From a virus, in the IMG/VR virus record IMGVR_UViG_3300017950_002300, positions 1 to 31,947 of that record: a DNA stretch of 31,947 nucleotides, one strand, 5' to 3'. Shown one piece after another: positions 1 to 19,323 of the stretch. The notes under the pieces were generated by a model. That model made no database searches, had not been told where the DNA came from, and saw only the letters and a list, made by a program, of their open reading frames with translations. How positions within the stretch are numbered: position 1 is the stretch's first letter; each line of letters opens with the position of its first letter. A program made the translations under genes and the position numbers.

Positions 1-417
1 GGTTGGCATTTAGGAAAAAATGGATCCCAACATATGCACACGCATTCAGTAGGTATAGAAGTAAATAATTTTGGTTATCTTAAAGATGGTAAAACATATG
101 CAGGTACTACAGCCCATGAATCACAAATTGTAGAATTAGATAAAGAATTTAGAGGATATAAACACTGGCACAGATATTCTGATGCCCAGATTGAAGCTTT
201 ACGTAAATGGATTTTATGGATTGCTGAAAGAGATGGTATCGATGTTAGAGCGGGATTACCTGCTTTAATTAAAGAAAAAGGTGCTGATGCTTTTGAATTT
301 AACGAAGATGCTTATTACGGAAGAGTAAAAGGTCTTTGGACTCATACTAATACAAGAAAAGATAAAGTCGATATGTTCCCACAACAAGAGTTGATGGACA
401 TGCTCACATCATTATGA
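1..417 (+). CDS. N-acetylmuramoyl-L-alanine amidase endolysin (5' end outside window)
   Basis: This is the C-terminal part of a peptidoglycan amidase of the Amidase_2/T7-lysozyme fold, which cuts the bond between muramic acid and L-alanine during lysis. The frame is open from base 1, so the true start lies upstream; the ATG at 34 is internal. Visible features are GWHLG near the fragment start (a typical zinc-ligand region), HTHSVGIEVNNFG (core strand) and the terminal THTNTRKDKVDMFPQ, which matches the H-x(n)-K-x-D zinc/catalytic end of the family. The stop overlaps the ATG of the following lipoprotein gene (ATGA). The holin-like gene downstream supports a lysis role. The family is clear; the full length is unknown. 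Confidence 0.85.
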   Translation, partial: GWHLGKNGSQHMHTHSVGIEVNNFGYLKDGKTYAGTTAHESQIVELDKEFRGYKHWHRYSDAQIEALRKWILWIAERDGIDVRAGLPALIKEKGADAFEFNEDAYYGRVKGLWTHTNTRKDKVDMFPQQELMDMLTSL

Positions 418-665: not shown

Positions 666-1088
666 ATGATCAAATCGACATACATGAAGGTAACAATAGC
701 TGGATCAGCATCAATAGGATTCTTTTGCTCCTATTTTATGGAACTAACAATGGCCAATGCAGAACAGTATTTAGCAGTTGCTGCTGTGCTTTTATTAGAT
801 GGATTTTTCGGCGTAATAGCTGGAATTAAAAGAGAAGGGTTTAAAACATATAAAGCTCTTAAAGTATTAAAATCATTAGCAACCTGGGAGATAATCCTTA
901 CAGCTATATTAATGATTGAAAAAGGTTTTGCTGGTACAAGTTGGTTAAGTGAAACAGTTATTACCCCATTTATAGTTTTTCAATTAATGTCTGCTCTTAA
1001 AAACGCTTCTATGGCAGGTTTCATCAAAAATGAGTTATTAAACATTATTTTAGATAAAATCGATAAACATAAAGGCGATAGAGTATGA
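666..1088 (+). CDS. holin-like membrane protein
   Basis: A 140-residue protein with three to four hydrophobic segments: about 10-27, 35-55 (AVAAVLLLDGFFGVIAGIKREG), 72-86 and 100-115. The phrase LLLDGFFGVIAGIKREGFKTYK resembles the second helix of the phage_holin_4 group common in phages of Bacteroidota and Firmicutes. Holins form the timed inner-membrane lesion that releases the endolysin. Position between the endolysin/lipoprotein and further membrane proteins supports this. An alternative start is Met7 (base 684). The C-terminus is charged (LDKIDKHKGDRV), as expected for a cytoplasmic holin tail. The stop overlaps the next ATG. Not proved without functional data. Confidence 0.65.
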   Translation: MIKSTYMKVTIAGSASIGFFCSYFMELTMANAEQYLAVAAVLLLDGFFGVIAGIKREGFKTYKALKVLKSLATWEIILTAILMIEKGFAGTSWLSETVITPFIVFQLMSALKNASMAGFIKNELLNIILDKIDKHKGDRV

Positions 1089-1287: not shown

Positions 1288-2190
1288 ATGAGTGCTTTAG
1301 ATGGCATATCACTTAATGCCAAAATTTCCTTAGCAATTGCAGGCATTATTATGTTAACCTTCTTTTCAGTACAAACTTGTATTGTATTTGGGTTATGTGA
1401 ACCCTCTTTAGAATTAGCTAAATTTGGTTGGGGTTGTGTTGTATTCTTCATGCCTCCCTTCTTTAAAGTAGTACAAGAATTTTTACTGAACAAAGCTAAA
1501 ATTAAAGATGAATTAAGTAATAAAAATCTTTATCTAGAACATGCTGCTAAAATTATTAGACACGATATGCATAGTGGTATCAATACTTATATTCCTAGAG
1601 GTGTAAAATCCCTTAAAAGAAGATTGAGCGAAGAACAAATTAAAGAATTAAAAATTACATCTCCACTTAAACTGGTAGAAGATGGTGTTCACCATGCTCA
1701 AAAAGTATATGCTGGGGTATACGAATTTACAAATTTATTTAAAGCAAATGCTCATATGAATGTTAAGCCCCACAATATTAAAGCTATATTGGGGGACTAT
1801 TTAAAATTAACAGCCTATGTTCAACAGGTTATTTTAGATGATAATTTACCGGAAGAATTAATTGTAAATGAACCTTTATTCTGTACGGCTTTAGATAACT
1901 TGATTCGTAATGGATTAAAATATAACGATTCTAAAACAAAATTTGTAAAAATTTATCATGAGGGTAGTTATCACCAAGGAAGTTATATAGTTATAGAAGA
2001 TAATGGGAGAGGAATTACTCAAGAAGAATTTATTGAGTTAAGCAAACCCTATGTTAGGAAAAAAGATCAGAAAGAAGGTGGCACAGGATTAGGATTAAAC
2101 ATCTGTGTAGCTATCTTAAAAGAACACGGTTTTGGAATTACAGCAGAAAAACTAAAACAAGGTACTAAAATTAAAATTAAGATAGACTAA
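1288..2190 (+). CDS. membrane-bound sensor histidine kinase
   Basis: A 300-residue two-component kinase. Residues 13-35 and 46-63 form two membrane segments with almost no extracytoplasmic domain. A coiled linker (65-85) leads to a dimerisation/phosphotransfer helix with the H-box IIRHDMHSGIN (His92, Asp93). The ATPase domain shows the N-box LDNLIRNGLKYND (Asn204, Asn208), the G1 box VIEDNGRG (238-242) and the G2 box GGTGLGL (264-270). All residues needed for autophosphorylation are present. It ends TAATG, so the stop overlaps the start of the receiver gene, its obvious partner. With no large sensor domain, the signal is probably sensed within the membrane or through adjacent membrane proteins. 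Kinases of this kind are unusual in phage genomes. Confidence 0.9.
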   Translation: MSALDGISLNAKISLAIAGIIMLTFFSVQTCIVFGLCEPSLELAKFGWGCVVFFMPPFFKVVQEFLLNKAKIKDELSNKNLYLEHAAKIIRHDMHSGINTYIPRGVKSLKRRLSEEQIKELKITSPLKLVEDGVHHAQKVYAGVYEFTNLFKANAHMNVKPHNIKAILGDYLKLTAYVQQVILDDNLPEELIVNEPLFCTALDNLIRNGLKYNDSKTKFVKIYHEGSYHQGSYIVIEDNGRGITQEEFIELSKPYVRKKDQKEGGTGLGLNICVAILKEHGFGITAEKLKQGTKIKIKID

Positions 2191-2627
2191 TGATTAACAC
2201 ATTAATGTTAATAGATGATGAAAATTTATTTCATCTGGTATTTGAGGATGCATGTTCAATTCTAGATATGGCTTTATCATTTGAAGCTTTAGATAGCTCT
2301 GATGAGGCTGATGCTAAATTCAAAGCATGGTTCCCAGACGACCCAAATAAAGAACGCCCTGAATGTGTGTTTGTAGATTTAAATATTATAGGATCCTCTT
2401 ATGACGGGATCGAAATGATTAGAAAAATTAACTACGAATACGGAGATGGGGTAGTAATAGGAATTATATCATCATCGGAAGATGAAGAAGAAATAGAAAA
2501 AGCTAAAAAAGTAGGTGCACAATTCTGGATTATAAAATCAGATGACATCGAACCCCGTTTAGAGGAATTCATGGAGGATTATGATAATTATAAATCAAAA
2601 AGTGCCCCATTTAAGATTTATAGATAA
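2190..2627 (+). CDS. stand-alone response-regulator receiver
   Basis: A 145-residue CheY-like receiver and nothing else. The acidic pair Asp9/Asp10 (LMLIDDEN), phospho-acceptor Asp63 (CVFVDLNI), the Ser/Thr switch position (IISSS, 92-96) and the conserved Lys116 (WIIKSDD) are all in place. The insertion around 45-57 (KAWFPDDPNKERPE) is longer than in CheY. There is no DNA-binding or enzymatic output domain, so output must be by protein contact. It is coupled to the kinase upstream (TAATG) and to the coiled-coil membrane protein downstream (TAATG). The kinase-receiver pairing is nearly certain from arrangement; the output partner is inferred. Confidence 0.88.
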   Translation: MINTLMLIDDENLFHLVFEDACSILDMALSFEALDSSDEADAKFKAWFPDDPNKERPECVFVDLNIIGSSYDGIEMIRKINYEYGDGVVIGIISSSEDEEEIEKAKKVGAQFWIIKSDDIEPRLEEFMEDYDNYKSKSAPFKIYR

Positions 2628-3241
2628 TGGTCGAAATAACAGAACATACTAGAAATGTTCTACTAGAGGTTGCTAAAACAAAAAAAATCTATGTAGAAGG
2701 TAATTTCCTTAAAATTCTTAAAGCCCCAAAAGGTGATGTAGAATTTGAGGAATACCTTACATTATGTAAAGAAAAAGATATAACTACTAGAAAAAAACGA
2801 TTAACAGTTACAAAACAAGTACAATCACAAAATAAAGAACTTGAAGCCGCAGCTAAAGAAAACGATAGAGTAAATAAGCAACTATCAAAGGCTTTAGATG
2901 AAGCCAGTAAATCAGCAGAAGAAGCAATTTTAGCTGAAAAAGAAGCCCATAAGTTAAGAGCAGAAGCAGAAAAGCTTAGAGACGCGGCTGTGGAGGATTT
3001 AGATACTCTCCAAAAACGCACCCAATTTGAATTAATAGGTCTTATAGTAAAAACAGCACTTTGGATTATAGGAGGGGTTGGAATCCTAACTTCTTGTTTG
3101 TATCTATATGTATTATCGGCTGGCATTGATGCTAAAATAATTGAATCTACATGGTCCAACTTATTTGGTATCTTATTAACCAACTCATTCAGTATTATAG
3201 GTACTATAATGGGTGTTAAATATGCCACTGAAAAACAATAA
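2627..3241 (+). CDS. coiled-coil protein with two C-terminal membrane helices
   Basis: A 204-residue protein of unknown family. Residues 1-60 are a small globular region (EITEHTRNVLLEVAKTKKIYVE). Residues 65-130 form a long, Ala/Glu/Lys-rich coiled coil (heptads through KALDEASKSAEEAILAEKEAH). Two membrane helices follow at about 140-162 and 178-198. The predicted shape is a membrane-anchored cytoplasmic stalk. Translation is coupled to the receiver gene upstream. The coiled coil and soluble head make it the most obvious output or scaffold partner for the lone receiver, but that rests on gene order only. Confidence 0.75.
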   Translation: MVEITEHTRNVLLEVAKTKKIYVEGNFLKILKAPKGDVEFEEYLTLCKEKDITTRKKRLTVTKQVQSQNKELEAAAKENDRVNKQLSKALDEASKSAEEAILAEKEAHKLRAEAEKLRDAAVEDLDTLQKRTQFELIGLIVKTALWIIGGVGILTSCLYLYVLSAGIDAKIIESTWSNLFGILLTNSFSIIGTIMGVKYATEKQ

Positions 3242-3245
3242 GACA

Positions 3246-4205
3246 ATGTTAAAAAAAATACAAGAAAGGATATTTCCCTTTATAATCGCAACCTCTGCCC
3301 TGTCGGTATCTGCTTCGGCCGCTTTCTATTCAGTTAGCGGCCTTAGCAAACTCTTTGCAGGTGCAGCTTTTGCAGTCATTATTATGGCCGCATCTTTAGA
3401 AGTAGCTAAATTAGTAATTGCTTCTTTACTTTATCAATATCGTAAAACATTACCCCGAGGATTAAAAATATATTTAACCATAGCAGCATTTGTATTGGTA
3501 TTGATTACTTCAATGGGCATTTATGGTTTCTTATCATCAGCTTATCAAGAAACAGCTAATAAAGCCGGTACTATTGATGCTAAAGTAGCTTTAGTTGAAA
3601 CCAAAAGAGATAATGTGCAAAGTCAATTAGCGGTATATAATGCAGAAAAAGAAAATATCGACAAGGGTATTGCTGAACTAAGAAAGGGCTTATCAAACAA
3701 CGTTATACAGTATACTAACGCTGAAGGGCAGTTAATAACAACAACCTCAAGTGCAACCCGTAAGGCTTTAGAAAGACAATTAGATCAAGCTGTTAAACGT
3801 CAAGATGAGTTAAATAACAAAGTAGATGGTTTAAATACCCAAATATTTGAATATGAAACTGAAATAGTTGAAATCCAAACTAATAATGATTTAGCAGGTG
3901 AATTAGGCCCACTAAAATATCTTTCAGGCTTAACTGGTGTCCCTATGGATCAAATTATTAATTGGTTACTTTTAACTATTATTTTCGTATTTGATCCTCT
4001 AGCAATTGCTTTGGTTATTGCTGCTAACTATGCTTTTGAACAATTAAAAGGTAAAACAAAACAAAACCTTTATGGAGAAAAAGTACCTGTAAATGATGAC
4101 CCTGAAATGGGGTTATGGGATAATACCCTCAATGATGGTTTAGAAGAAGAAGTATTAGAAGAACCTAATGAAGCTCTAAAACAAGCAGCAGAATCTTATA
4201 AATAA
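3246..4205 (+). CDS. four-helix membrane protein with internal coiled coil
   Basis: A 319-residue product from the ATG at 3246, chosen because it lies four bases after the upstream stop in an A-rich context; in-frame ATGs at 3213 and 3222 would overlap the upstream gene. Membrane helices lie at about 10-30, 36-60 and 74-97, then a long coiled coil (about 108-215, rich in Q, E, K and N), then a fourth helix at about 238-262 (NWLLLTIIFVFDPLAIALVIAA). The tail is acidic (LEEEVLEEPNEA). The topology loosely recalls DUF4407-type proteins, but I cannot confirm that. The TAA stop is followed in the same frame by 78 more codons that have no start codon of their own (see 4206-4442). Confidence 0.78.
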   Translation: MLKKIQERIFPFIIATSALSVSASAAFYSVSGLSKLFAGAAFAVIIMAASLEVAKLVIASLLYQYRKTLPRGLKIYLTIAAFVLVLITSMGIYGFLSSAYQETANKAGTIDAKVALVETKRDNVQSQLAVYNAEKENIDKGIAELRKGLSNNVIQYTNAEGQLITTTSSATRKALERQLDQAVKRQDELNNKVDGLNTQIFEYETEIVEIQTNNDLAGELGPLKYLSGLTGVPMDQIINWLLLTIIFVFDPLAIALVIAANYAFEQLKGKTKQNLYGEKVPVNDDPEMGLWDNTLNDGLEEEVLEEPNEALKQAAESYK

Positions 4206-4442
4206 AAAAAAAAAACAGAAGAAAAATCATCCGAACAATTAGAAGAAGATTTCGAAAAATTAGAAAAAGAATACGACGAATTCGATTTAAATAAGGATGG
4301 GGTTTTAAGTGAAGAAGAAATAAGAGCCAGAGAAGATGCACTATTAAATATCTCATCAACCTCAGGATGGAAAAAGAGAAAAATATTAAGAGAAAGGGAA
4401 AAAAGAGAAAATAGAAACGATGATTTAACTATTCGTTACTAA
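4206..4442 (+). other. in-frame extension after TAA carrying an EF-hand
   Basis: The frame of the preceding membrane-protein gene continues past its TAA (4203-4205) for 78 codons to a second TAA at 4440-4442. This stretch has no in-frame ATG, GTG or TTG, so it can hardly be an independent gene. Its content is protein-like: acidic helix, then a textbook EF-hand loop DLNKDGVLSEEE (bases 4284-4319; D, N, D, S, E at positions 1, 3, 5, 9, 12), then a very basic tail (KKRKILREREKRE). A run of 12 A begins at the stop codon. Stop-codon readthrough, a recent nonsense mutation, or a sequence error at base 4203 could each explain it; one base change would join the two parts into a protein of about 398 residues from the 3246 start. 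Confidence 0.7.
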
Positions 4443-6710: not shown

Positions 6711-7485
6711 TCATGAAACACCAATGTGTTTACTAGAGAGAAGTGAAAATTTTAATGATTATGATTATTGTCTTCCCCATCTTTTAGATAAAGAACCAGC
6801 ATATCTAGATTATTTTCGCAGAGCTAAAGAAAAAGGAAGATATATTATAATGGACAATTCACTTCATGAGTTAGGTGAAGCCTATAACCATGAACGTTTA
6901 TTACATTGGATTGAAGAATTACAACCTAATGAATTTATTGTTCCTGATGTTTGGGAAAATATGGGAGAATCAATTCAAAATGCTGAAATATGGAACCTAT
7001 ATAATTTTCCAGAAGGAGTAGAGAAGGTAGCTGTAGTTCAAGCAAAAACCCTCCACGAAGCATTTGAATGTACTAAAATTTATAAAGAACTAGGTTATAA
7101 AAAGATATGCTACTCATATGGGGCTTCATATTATAATGATATTTGTACACACCCCAATAAAGATTTAGGTAAAGCATTGGGTAGAATTTTTGTTATTTCT
7201 ACTTTATATAACCAGGGGATATTAACAAAAACAGATAGAGTACACCTTTTAGGATGCTCAGTACCTCAAGAATTTAGATGGTATGAGGGAATAGATTGTA
7301 TTGAATCGATTGATACCTCAAACCCTGTAATGGCTGCTTTAGAAAATATTTTTTACACTCATACTGGGTTAAGTACAAAACCTAAAGCAAACATGAATGA
7401 TTTCTTCTACATAGATAGTAGTGAAATTAATGAAGAAAAATTACATTGGAATTTACAAAAATTTAGATTAATAAATAATATATAA
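6700..7485 (+). CDS. DpdA-like guanine transglycosylase (tRNA-guanine transglycosylase superfamily)
   Basis: A 261-residue TIM-barrel-like protein. Segments typical of phage DpdA/TGT relatives are IIMDNSLHELGE (Asp52), EFIVPDVWEN (Asp83), VAVVQAKT, KICYSYGA, HLLGCSVPQEFRWY and CIESIDTSNPVMAA. Asp52 and Asp83 are candidates for the catalytic pair of the superfamily, one of which attacks the glycosidic bond to exchange guanine for a 7-deazaguanine. It lacks the zinc-binding C-terminal segment of cellular TGT, which suits a DNA-acting DpdA. The other genes of the pathway (folE, queD, queE, queC-like) lie within 9 kb. I cannot tell which DpdA subfamily this is; fold recognition would settle it. 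Confidence 0.7.
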   Translation: MRVSHETPMCLLERSENFNDYDYCLPHLLDKEPAYLDYFRRAKEKGRYIIMDNSLHELGEAYNHERLLHWIEELQPNEFIVPDVWENMGESIQNAEIWNLYNFPEGVEKVAVVQAKTLHEAFECTKIYKELGYKKICYSYGASYYNDICTHPNKDLGKALGRIFVISTLYNQGILTKTDRVHLLGCSVPQEFRWYEGIDCIESIDTSNPVMAALENIFYTHTGLSTKPKANMNDFFYIDSSEINEEKLHWNLQKFRLINNI

Positions 7486-16097: not shown

Positions 16098-16712
16098 ATG
16101 ACACAATTTGAACAAGAAATAGAAGTAATTCTAATGAACAGTTTAGGTACTCTTCAATCATTAAGAGATAGAGACCAACTTAGCATCATCCCGGATACTG
16201 AATGGGCTGAATATACTGCTAAAAAAATAGCAGATCAATTCAAGGGCAATTATGTCCCATTTGTGAGTGAAGTAGAAACATTTAATGCTACAATGGGTAA
16301 ACCCAACAATTATGAGCCAGTTATACCAGAAGAAAAAGAATGGATGTTTGTTTACAATTTCATCCTTGAAGAACTTGAAGAGTACAAACACGCCTGTGAG
16401 ACAGGGGACATTGTTGAAATTCTTGATGCTTTATGTGACATTGCCTACGTCTCGATTGGTAACGGAGCTATGCTACATGGTCTTAAGGATAAGTTATGGG
16501 AAGCCTATCAAGAAGTACAAGCGTCGAATATGTCAAAGGCTTGTAATAGTGAAGAGGAAGCACAACAAACGGTCGAAAGACGTTCCGCAGAACAAAATGA
16601 ACCGTGTCACTACGAAAAGGTTGGGGAATATTATATTGTCTATAGAAGCCGTGATCGTAAAGTAATGAAAAATGTAAATTATTTTAGACCGGACCTTAAA
16701 AAATTCTTTTAA
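16098..16712 (+). CDS. MazG-like nucleotide pyrophosphohydrolase
   Basis: A 204-residue protein with an all-alpha NTP pyrophosphatase core. FILEELEEYKHACETGD (Glu91, Glu92, Glu94, Glu95) and VEILDALCDIAYVSIG (Asp110, Asp114) form the metal-binding EExxE...DxxxD pattern, followed by WEAYQEVQASNMSKAC as in phosphoribosyl-ATP pyrophosphohydrolase-type members. The C-terminal part (HYEKVGEYYIVYRSRDRKVMKN) matches the usual substrate loop. It would hydrolyse non-canonical or excess (d)NTPs or an alarmone; substrate unknown. Its stop overlaps the first polymerase gene by one base. Confidence 0.85.
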   Translation: MTQFEQEIEVILMNSLGTLQSLRDRDQLSIIPDTEWAEYTAKKIADQFKGNYVPFVSEVETFNATMGKPNNYEPVIPEEKEWMFVYNFILEELEEYKHACETGDIVEILDALCDIAYVSIGNGAMLHGLKDKLWEAYQEVQASNMSKACNSEEEAQQTVERRSAEQNEPCHYEKVGEYYIVYRSRDRKVMKNVNYFRPDLKKFF

Positions 16713-18394
16713 TGTATAAAAAAGCATTTGCTCAAAAGATAGGTGATAATAAACATTTGATCCATCTTTGGGAAGATACAGGTTACTCTAAAGTAGAATG
16801 GATTAATAAGTCATACATTGAATGTGGTGAAGCTGATGCTACGCATGTTGGGTTGAATGGTGAACCTCTTAGAAGGATTTCTAATTGGAAGCCTGACAAC
16901 CCAAAACTTCACTTCCATGATATCCCCCCTTATCAAAAATTCCTTATTGAAAAATATGGTATTAATGATGAACCTTCAATCTCACATCGGGAAGTATTTT
17001 TCGATATTGAGATTGAAATGGGTGAGGCTTTGACTGAAGAATACATTAAAAGTGCCCCTAAGAAAGTAACTTCAATTGCCTGGTACGATAAGCAATTAGA
17101 TGAATGGGCTATTTTAATCCTGGATGTTAAGGGTAAACTTAATAGAACTAAAGCAAAAAACAAAGAAATCATCCCAGTAGCAACTGAGGATGAATTGCTA
17201 ATGAAATTTATTGAGAGATTTAGAGAAATTGATCCTGACATTATTGTAGGTTGGAATAGTGATTATTTCGATATCCCTTATCTTTACTACAGAATATGTA
17301 ACGTGTTAGGTGAAGATATTGCTCGTTATTTATCTCCTATAGGTTATGTTAGAGAAACTCCATGGTTTAAAGATCAATTTATCCAAATAGCCGGAGTTGA
17401 ATCTTTGGATTATATGCGATTACATAAGAAGTTTAGTTGGGCTGATGAACCGTCATTTAAATTAGATGCTATTGGGGAAAAGTATGCTGGTCTTAATAAG
17501 ATTGAATATGATGGAAATTTAGATAAATTATTTGAAGATGATCCACTTAAATTTGCTCAATACAATTTCCGTGATGTTGAAATTTTAAAAGTATTAGATG
17601 AAAAGTTAGAGTATTTATCACTTGTTAAAAATCTATCTCATAAAGGTAAACACAATTATAGTGAAGTATATGCTAATACCAAAACACAAGATGGAGCAAT
17701 TTCAGCTTACTTACTAAGTGAAGGTATTGTACCCCCAGCTAAAGATCGTAATCCTTTATCTAAAAAGAACTATGCAGGTGGATATTTATTTTGTCCTAAA
17801 GCCGGTATCTATAATTATGTATTTGATGAAGATTTAACTTCACTATACCCTTCAATTATTATGACTATTAATATTGGTAAGGAAACAATGGTTGGAAGGA
17901 TTATAGATGCTGATGATAGAAATAATCGTTTAGGTTTAAATGATTTACTACGAAGAGATCCTGAAGAAGAGCTTATAATTGAAAACGTAAAAAGAAAACG
18001 TACTAAGATTAAAGTTGGGGGGTTAATTAACCTAATCCAGGACATGGAAATGTCTATTTCAGCTAACGGTGTTTTCTTTAGGACTGATAAAGAATCGGTA
18101 TTGTCTACTATTCTTAAAAAATGGTTTGATGAACGTGTGTTGTATAAAAATGAAATGAAAAAAGCATATAAAGCTGGTGATAAAGAATTAGGTGCCGCTT
18201 TCCATATGAAGCAGTATACTATGAAGATTTTGCTAAACAGTTTGTATGGTGCAACAGCTCTTGGTAGTTTCCGCTATGGTAATGTTATTTTATCTGAATC
18301 TATTACTCTGAGTGGTCAGCGTATTATTCAAGAGAGTGCATTAACTGCAAATCGTCATATTAACAAGGTTATAAAAGAGAATATAGAATTATGA
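16712..18394 (+). CDS. 43A: family B DNA polymerase, N-terminal part (T4 gp43-like, split)
   Basis: A 560-residue protein carrying the N-terminal, exonuclease, part of the palm and fingers domains of the replicative polymerase. Proofreading motifs: Exo I FFDIEIEMG (Asp98, Glu100), Exo II VGWNSDYFDIPYL, Exo III YNFRDVEIL. Polymerase motif A is DLTSLYPSI and motif B is KILLNSLYGATALGSFRYGN. Chain ends about 50 residues after motif B at KVIKENIEL. Motif C and the thumb are in the next gene, in another frame, starting with a four-base ATGA overlap. The two products must associate to form a working enzyme, as in other split gp43 polymerases. Confidence 0.94.
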   Translation: MYKKAFAQKIGDNKHLIHLWEDTGYSKVEWINKSYIECGEADATHVGLNGEPLRRISNWKPDNPKLHFHDIPPYQKFLIEKYGINDEPSISHREVFFDIEIEMGEALTEEYIKSAPKKVTSIAWYDKQLDEWAILILDVKGKLNRTKAKNKEIIPVATEDELLMKFIERFREIDPDIIVGWNSDYFDIPYLYYRICNVLGEDIARYLSPIGYVRETPWFKDQFIQIAGVESLDYMRLHKKFSWADEPSFKLDAIGEKYAGLNKIEYDGNLDKLFEDDPLKFAQYNFRDVEILKVLDEKLEYLSLVKNLSHKGKHNYSEVYANTKTQDGAISAYLLSEGIVPPAKDRNPLSKKNYAGGYLFCPKAGIYNYVFDEDLTSLYPSIIMTINIGKETMVGRIIDADDRNNRLGLNDLLRRDPEEELIIENVKRKRTKIKVGGLINLIQDMEMSISANGVFFRTDKESVLSTILKKWFDERVLYKNEMKKAYKAGDKELGAAFHMKQYTMKILLNSLYGATALGSFRYGNVILSESITLSGQRIIQESALTANRHINKVIKENIEL

Positions 18395-19323
18395 AGCATA
18401 TAGAAGATACTCCTTGGTGGATTTGTGATCCTGAAGATACTAACTATGTAGCTTATTCCGATACTGATTCTATTTACATCCACGCAGAACCTTTACTTAG
18501 ACATTTGTATTCTAATTTTGATGAAATGCCTAGTGAAGAAAAAGATGATAAGCTAGAAGAAATTGCCTTAAAGTATCAGGATATTATTACTGATTCCTAT
18601 GATGTGCTAGCTTCAGATTGTTTCAATGCTAAGGGGAAACATAGATTAGAAATGAAAACTGAATGTGTTATCCGCTCAGCTTATTTTAGAGCTACTCGTC
18701 GTTATGCTCAGTGGATTACTAAACAGGAAGGTATTGTAAAAGAATCCCTTGATGTAAAAGGTTTAGAGTTTAAAAAAGCAAATTTCCCACCAGTGTTAGG
18801 TAAATTTTTCCATAAAACGTTAGTTGACGTCTTAAAAGGTGCGCAGCAACCTGAGATAGACACCCGTGTGAAGGAATTTAAACAGCAAATATTAGACGGT
18901 AGTATACCGCTAACAGAACTAGGTAACCCCACATCAGTTAAAACATTAAACAAATATACTGAACGTAAAGCTCGTGCTGGGGAAATGTTTTCTACAATTG
19001 CTAAGGGTGCTCCAGCAGCAGTTAAATCGGTTATTATATATAATGACTTACTTAGGTTTTGGGGATTAAGTAAAGACCATAGTTATATTACTCAAGGTGA
19101 AAAAGTAAAATGGATCTACTTAAAACCAAATGCATACCAGATTGATGCAATTGCATTTTTAGAATGGGATATGCCCCCTAAGATCCGTACATTTATAGAA
19201 CAGAATGCTGATAGGAAGAAGATTTTTGATTCTATTCTACTAAATAAATTAGAGGGTTTTTATAATGACCTTGGTTGGACTTTGAATTTAAACCCTTATA
19301 AAGAAATGTTTTTTAATCTATAA
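18391..19323 (+). CDS. 43B: family B DNA polymerase, C-terminal part (T4 gp43-like, split)
   Basis: A 310-residue protein beginning about 20 residues before polymerase motif C, VAYSDTDSIYIH (catalytic Asp24 and Asp26), followed by MKTECVIRSAYFRATRRYA (KxY-type palm/thumb region) and the thumb. The C-terminus, YKEMFFNL, ends in a hydrophobic tail of the kind that binds the clamp in T4 gp43. Frame is shifted from the first part and no in-frame fusion is possible without frameshifting, so two polypeptides are expected. Its stop overlaps the carbamoyltransferase start by one base. Confidence 0.94.
   Translation: MKHIEDTPWWICDPEDTNYVAYSDTDSIYIHAEPLLRHLYSNFDEMPSEEKDDKLEEIALKYQDIITDSYDVLASDCFNAKGKHRLEMKTECVIRSAYFRATRRYAQWITKQEGIVKESLDVKGLEFKKANFPPVLGKFFHKTLVDVLKGAQQPEIDTRVKEFKQQILDGSIPLTELGNPTSVKTLNKYTERKARAGEMFSTIAKGAPAAVKSVIIYNDLLRFWGLSKDHSYITQGEKVKWIYLKPNAYQIDAIAFLEWDMPPKIRTFIEQNADRKKIFDSILLNKLEGFYNDLGWTLNLNPYKEMFFNL

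Follow-up and report, generated by a model that had tools for sequence, protein, structure and literature searches.

A phage-borne kinase-receiver-membrane protein triad, a candidate phosphorelay that may tune lysis by host state

Gene Organization of the Triad

The genes studied here lie in a virus sequence of 31,947 bases (IMG/VR virus record IMGVR_UViG_3300017950_002300, positions 1-31,947), and this whole stretch is referred to below as the window. Three successive open reading frames (ORFs), together called the triad, encode a sensor kinase, a receiver, and a coiled-coil membrane protein named CC1:

1288..2190, plus strand: membrane sensor histidine kinase of 300 amino acids (aa), with two transmembrane (TM) helices and a short loop, followed by DHp (His92) and CA domains
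2190..2627, plus strand: stand-alone receiver (Asp63) of 145 aa without an output domain
2627..3241, plus strand: CC1, the proposed effector, of 204 aa, with an N-terminal domain (EGN..K motif), a long coiled coil, and a two-helix C-terminal membrane hairpin

The ORFs are joined by TAATG overlaps, which the initial annotation had noted at 2190 and 2627 and which were located at 2188-2192 (kinase/receiver) and 2625-2629 (receiver/CC1). The kinase matched HATPase_c of Pfam at 1.7e-15, above the family cut-off, and a Pfam HisKA search of the DHp region gave no hit. The H-box (R91-H92-D93), N-box (N204/N208), G1 box (D238-N239-G240-G242), and G2 box (G267-L268-G269) were invariant over 29 relatives, and the predicted model had the DHp/CA fold of HK853, ZraS, and CpxA. 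The earlier description of a complete membrane histidine kinase with its His92, N, G1, and G2 boxes was thus borne out. In the receiver, D9, D10, D63, S94, and K116 were invariant in 23 relatives, and the Response_reg match of Pfam (1.9e-7) was narrowly above the cut-off, in keeping with the proposed lone receiver with Asp63. A DNA-binding output domain was looked for in the window receiver and none was found; as had been stated, the 145-aa product is a receiver alone and does not have the make-up of a transcriptional response regulator.

The evolutionary distances of kinase and receiver were correlated within the close group of loci (rho 0.75), compared to 0.18-0.31 between the kinase and other genes, which is expected of a cognate pair. 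With its kinase boxes, its receiver residues, and two genes that are encoded together and evolve as a pair, the window carries the parts of a two-component system. Phosphotransfer from His92 to Asp63 is predicted from what is known of these families.

Conservation of the Triad in Viral Contigs

The triad was recovered by four separate queries (the kinase, the CC1 N-domain, the CC1 hairpin, and the receiver), each of which gave many viral loci. At least 557 viral stretches encoding the receiver were found by the receiver search, in contigs of up to 322 kb, and at least 588 stretches were confirmed by the search with the CC1 hairpin. After removal of identical receivers, kinase, receiver, and CC1 followed each other in this order in 128 of the 131 loci that could be tested on both sides, so three of the four genes that had been grouped together form a conserved unit. 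The exceptions were the bacterial contig L084 and two viral loci in which no kinase lay in reach. CC1 lay downstream of the receiver in 143/144 testable loci, and a kinase was encoded at most 1.5 kb upstream of the receiver in 151/153; eight loci had two kinases before the single receiver. The ratio of nonsynonymous to synonymous substitution rates was about 0.01-0.2 for kinase, receiver, and CC1, which indicates purifying selection, and the C-terminal two-helix hairpin of CC1 was highly conserved. When the receiver and CC1 of two divergent members were compared with 50,697 deposited phage records by tblastn, no match was obtained.

Other genes were sometimes found inserted in the triad. In L112 and L120 (6600-7592), kinase and receiver are separated by a 330-aa protein judged by eye to be patatin-like (GGGLRG, GTSTGG), and in L093 (3144-3866) by one that resembles a GIY-YIG homing endonuclease, again judged by eye. 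YceI-like proteins recur between kinase and receiver (L099, L164) and upstream of the kinase (L094, L097, L112, L146, L148, L156); the copy of L148 matched Pfam YceI at 5.5e-28. A 163-aa membrane and coiled-coil protein stands between receiver and CC1 in L034 (3006-3497) and 13 other loci.

Bacterial Relatives

A genome scan yielded four loci, and the Bacteroidota contigs L082 and L084 were among the relatives. The gene content of L082 otherwise looks bacterial, and a 349-aa protein is encoded after its kinase and receiver. Residues 1-81 of this protein correspond to the CC1 N-domain (2.3e-30) and are followed by HisKA (just below the cut-off) and HATPase_c, without a hairpin. Since the same N-domain thus precedes two different outputs, the N-domain with the coiled coil would be the input part of CC1 and the membrane hairpin its output in phages. 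From this domain arrangement, the N-domain is probably the target of the receiver. A full triad adjoining phage-like genes was found in L083.

The profiles of the receiver and of the CC1 N-domain each matched one of 395 Bacteroidota genomes, and the idea of a wide bacterial family was dropped on these counts. The CC1-hairpin profile matched none of the 395 in a search that had no positive control. On the unrooted kinase tree, the bacterial copies clustered with phage L094.

Sensor Domains of the Kinases

The helices of the window kinase are predicted at residues 9-33 and from 41 onward, with a connecting loop of about 7 residues. Two TM helices, a very short extracytoplasmic loop, and no further sensor domain are the features of an intramembrane-sensing kinase, and the lack of a large sensor domain reported in the initial annotation is correct for this copy. 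It does not hold for the relatives, which have PAS and GAF domains. While the core of the kinase was constant, the sensor part ranged from the bare membrane hairpin of the window to one PAS, PAS-PAS, and GAF-PAS-PAS, and in some relatives the TM helix was missing altogether. These types were interleaved on the unrooted kinase-core tree, which indicates that sensors were repeatedly gained, lost, or exchanged. Kinases also seem to pass between phages: L005 and L024 share 91% identity in their kinases, 79% in their receivers, and 64% in CC1, and the much closer kinases suggest an exchange.

MmoS, Aer, and NifL are redox sensors that bind flavin adenine dinucleotide (FAD). All three were within the five best matches of the first PAS domain of the two-PAS relative L080 (1.2e-26, 6.6e-15, and 2.6e-12, respectively), so that this domain is closest to known FAD-binding PAS domains. 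The likeness is in the PAS alignment; kinase core and output differ.

Lysis Genes and the Fourth Coding Sequence

The triad was said to stand beside endolysin, lipoprotein, and holin genes, and all three were found upstream of it. The neighboring features of the window are as follows:

34..417, plus strand: C-terminal part of an endolysin (PG_binding_1 and Amidase_2), whose full-length homologue in L002 has 293 aa
about 414-554: small lipoprotein, recognized by eye
666..1088, plus strand: holin (Phage_holin_4_1-like, weak Pfam/PHROG match), outside the signaling unit; 62% identity with the annotated holin of phage immuto
1085..1285, plus strand: 66-aa membrane protein, found immediately 5' of the kinase in 34/110 loci
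3246..4205, plus strand: CC2, a separate coiled-coil membrane protein outside the conserved unit

In the 110 loci that differ in their receivers, the genes most often found around the triad encode peptidoglycan hydrolases, the holin, the 66-aa membrane protein, or a further small protein with two helices. The hydrolases belonged to several families: a peptidoglycan-binding domain with Amidase_2 or GH19, phage lysozyme, peptidase M15, and an unnamed domain, which in L080 comes after a segment resembling the peptidoglycan-binding domain. A hydrolase was encoded nearby in 27/34 loci of the close group and in 27/72 distant loci, counts in which the loci are not independent and the list of hydrolases is incomplete. 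In the distant loci, hydrolases made up 28 of the 361 genes within 1.5 kb of the triad compared to 8 of 509 farther away. Among ten long contigs carrying a strong GH19-type lysin match, six had it at most 2.3 kb from the triad. The proposed connection with lysis is therefore found in many lineages but is not universal. YceI-like, metallophosphoesterase, DnaK, and ribonucleotide-reductase-like genes also recurred as neighbors.

The lysis locus of the cultured Immutovirus immuto (MW353175, L303) is alike in having an endolysin (of chitinase type), a holin, a 67-aa two-helix protein, and CC2, and the phage also encodes a window-like GroEL, but three unrelated genes occupy the place of kinase, receiver, and CC1. 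This lysis locus with CC2 and without the triad indicates that the triad is an optional accessory to it. The immuto genes 83-85 were considered as a diverged triad and rejected, the profiles giving no support. The 67-aa protein (gene 82, 6780-6983) comes after the holin; it matched the CC1 hairpin weakly (profile E 3e-5, with the 8-protein set only) and had no PHROG in common with it.

CC2 had been counted as the second coiled-coil membrane protein of a four-gene set. CC1, with its coiled coil and hairpin, belongs to the conserved set, but CC2 does not: it was found close to the triad in 21 of the 81 loci examined first, is present in immuto without the triad, and was matched in other phages. 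The four-gene unit was discarded for these reasons. The CC2 ORF was listed from GTG 3213; ATG 3246 is preferred and is probably the start. It does not run to 4442, as had been proposed, because an in-frame TAA at 4203-4205 closes it; beyond this codon the frame has no further stop over 78 codons, up to 4441. This stop is not present in the CC2 of relatives and may be a variant, an error, or a site of readthrough. It adjoins a long A run, and the stretch read on to 4441 has an EF-hand-like DLNKDGVLSEEE and closes with a tail resembling the one in relatives.

Possible Mechanism of the Triad

We favor the reading, with about an even chance of its being right, that the triad is a phage phosphorelay with a membrane-protein output, most likely tuning lysis by host state. 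The kinase would sense the state of the infected cell by way of the membrane hairpin in the window copy and, in many relatives, by way of cytoplasmic PAS or GAF domains, the best matched of them of redox type. After autophosphorylation at His92, it would transfer the phosphate to the stand-alone receiver at Asp63. CC1, at its N-terminal domain and coiled coil, would be the target of the receiver, which has no DNA-binding domain. The two-helix hairpin of CC1 would then change its behavior in the membrane. The likeliest purpose would be to advance or delay lysis according to the energy or membrane state of the host, with CC1 as an accessory regulator of holin-like or antiholin-like type. The contact between receiver and CC1 and its effects on membrane and lysis are what we infer from this arrangement. 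A more specific version is tentative and on the whole doubtful: a transcription-free relay reading redox or membrane state, in which phosphorylation of the receiver directly opens or closes the coiled-coil two-helix effector and so times lysis. The output would be pore-like or holin-like, and the system would have arisen when the kinase output of a bacterial protein with the CC1 N-domain was swapped for the hairpin, or the reverse.

Several findings weigh against a role of the triad in lysis through CC1. The covariation of the receiver with the CC1 N-domain was no stronger than with the lysin. A recognized hydrolase was missing nearby in 45/72 distant loci, and in four of the ten long contigs the strong GH19-type lysin match lay 11-58 kb from the triad. 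The redox-type PAS match comes from relatives, the window kinase having no PAS domain. CC1 showed no relation to holins in Pfam, PHROG, or PDB comparisons, and no solved structure was related to its fold; the fold match in BFVD was one protein of an uncultured phage with no assigned function. CC1 may still work as a holin does, or regulate one.

The distant loci lacking a hydrolase would fit a somewhat unlikely alternative, in which the triad rewires host physiology: CC1 would act on the host membrane or on a membrane complex (respiration, transport, or envelope stress), and the lysis neighborhood would reflect a shared late operon. The YceI-like, metallophosphoesterase, DnaK, and ribonucleotide-reductase-like neighbors and the redox-type PAS of one relative are also consistent with such a role, but the density of hydrolases is highest within 1.5 kb of the triad, and the lysins found there come from several unrelated families. 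The short outer loop between the two helices of the window kinase, as in intramembrane-sensing kinases, the match of its model to BceS of the BceAB-S complex, and the adjoining holin and endolysin would suit a triad that detects superinfection or damage to the membrane and then seals or de-energizes the envelope, in superinfection exclusion or lysis inhibition like that of T4 RI/RIII. We consider this unlikely, since the cytoplasmic PAS and GAF domains of many relatives and the TM-less kinases of some favor a cytoplasmic cue.

The contig L084 (967 kb) encodes kinase and receiver without CC1, which counts against CC1 as the necessary output and indicates that the pair can act on another partner. 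Single-domain receivers often work through other proteins, and the receiver of the triad could accordingly control a host or phage partner encoded elsewhere, such as a transcription or motility protein, with CC1 as a membrane anchor or accessory. This seems improbable given that CC1 follows the receiver in all but one of the testable loci and that its N-domain is fused to a kinase in L082. Chance acquisition of a host two-component pair (a moron), without a selected function during infection, is hardly to be expected. The relatives in the Bacteroidota contigs L082 and L084 would agree with it, but the gene order is conserved, the genes are under purifying selection, the hundreds of receiver-encoding viral stretches stand against a single matching Bacteroidota genome, and the bacterial copies group with phage L094.

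Comparison With Known Systems

In the usual view, the build-up of holin is the main determinant of phage lysis time, and few inputs from the cell are known. In T4 lysis inhibition, RI, RIII, and the T holin control the time of lysis by cell state. This resembles the proposed action of the triad in how it works; no homologous protein was found here, and T4 uses no phosphorelay. Like classical two-component systems of the HK853-RR468, CpxA, and ZraS type, the triad has a DHp and CA kinase with all boxes, a separate receiver with the acidic pocket, Asp, Ser, and Lys, and a cognate gene pair. It differs from them in being phage-borne, in the missing Pfam HisKA hit in the DHp region, in a receiver without output, and in the third gene with its membrane hairpin.

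The Clostridioides difficile phage phiCDHM1 also encodes a histidine kinase. Its agr genes comprise AgrD, AgrB, and AgrC, and the consulted part of the report names no phage response regulator (PMC3901668). The kinase of the triad, in contrast, comes with its own receiver and a proposed effector, and autoinducer genes were not seen with it; AgrB/AgrD genes were not recognized among the triad neighbors examined, where a short peptide gene might be overlooked. According to the consulted parts of the sources, LytST-LrgAB and SrrAB-dependent programmed lysis are cases of two-component control of holin-like functions or lysis by oxygen or respiratory state (PMC3507848, PMC5380435). The likeness is again one of working only: these are host systems acting on host genes, and the triad has no DNA-binding output.

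No description of a kinase-receiver-CC1 module was found in the open-access papers covered by the search, which did not extend to subscription papers. The parts are of known kind; what is novel is that phages carry them together, joined to a dedicated membrane protein. Such a set, kept across many large-phage lineages, would show that phages run real-time signaling of their own. A virus may in this way monitor its host and respond with a direct action on the membrane, perhaps deciding when to lyse. The triad is a concrete three-protein system open to testing, and it offers a natural case in which one input domain has a kinase as output in a bacterium and a membrane hairpin in phages.

Host and Other Genes of the Window

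The nearest deposited phage for both the GroEL and the holin of the window was Flavobacterium phage immuto, which points to a Bacteroidota host. The large family of uncultured phages bearing the triad probably infects Bacteroidota. The window also encodes thymidylate synthase, QueC/D/E, GTP cyclohydrolase, a clamp loader, and a carbamoyltransferase. Its DNA polymerase (phrog_262) is matched by two consecutive overlapping ORFs, 16712-18394 and 18391-19323, which cover successive parts of the profile.

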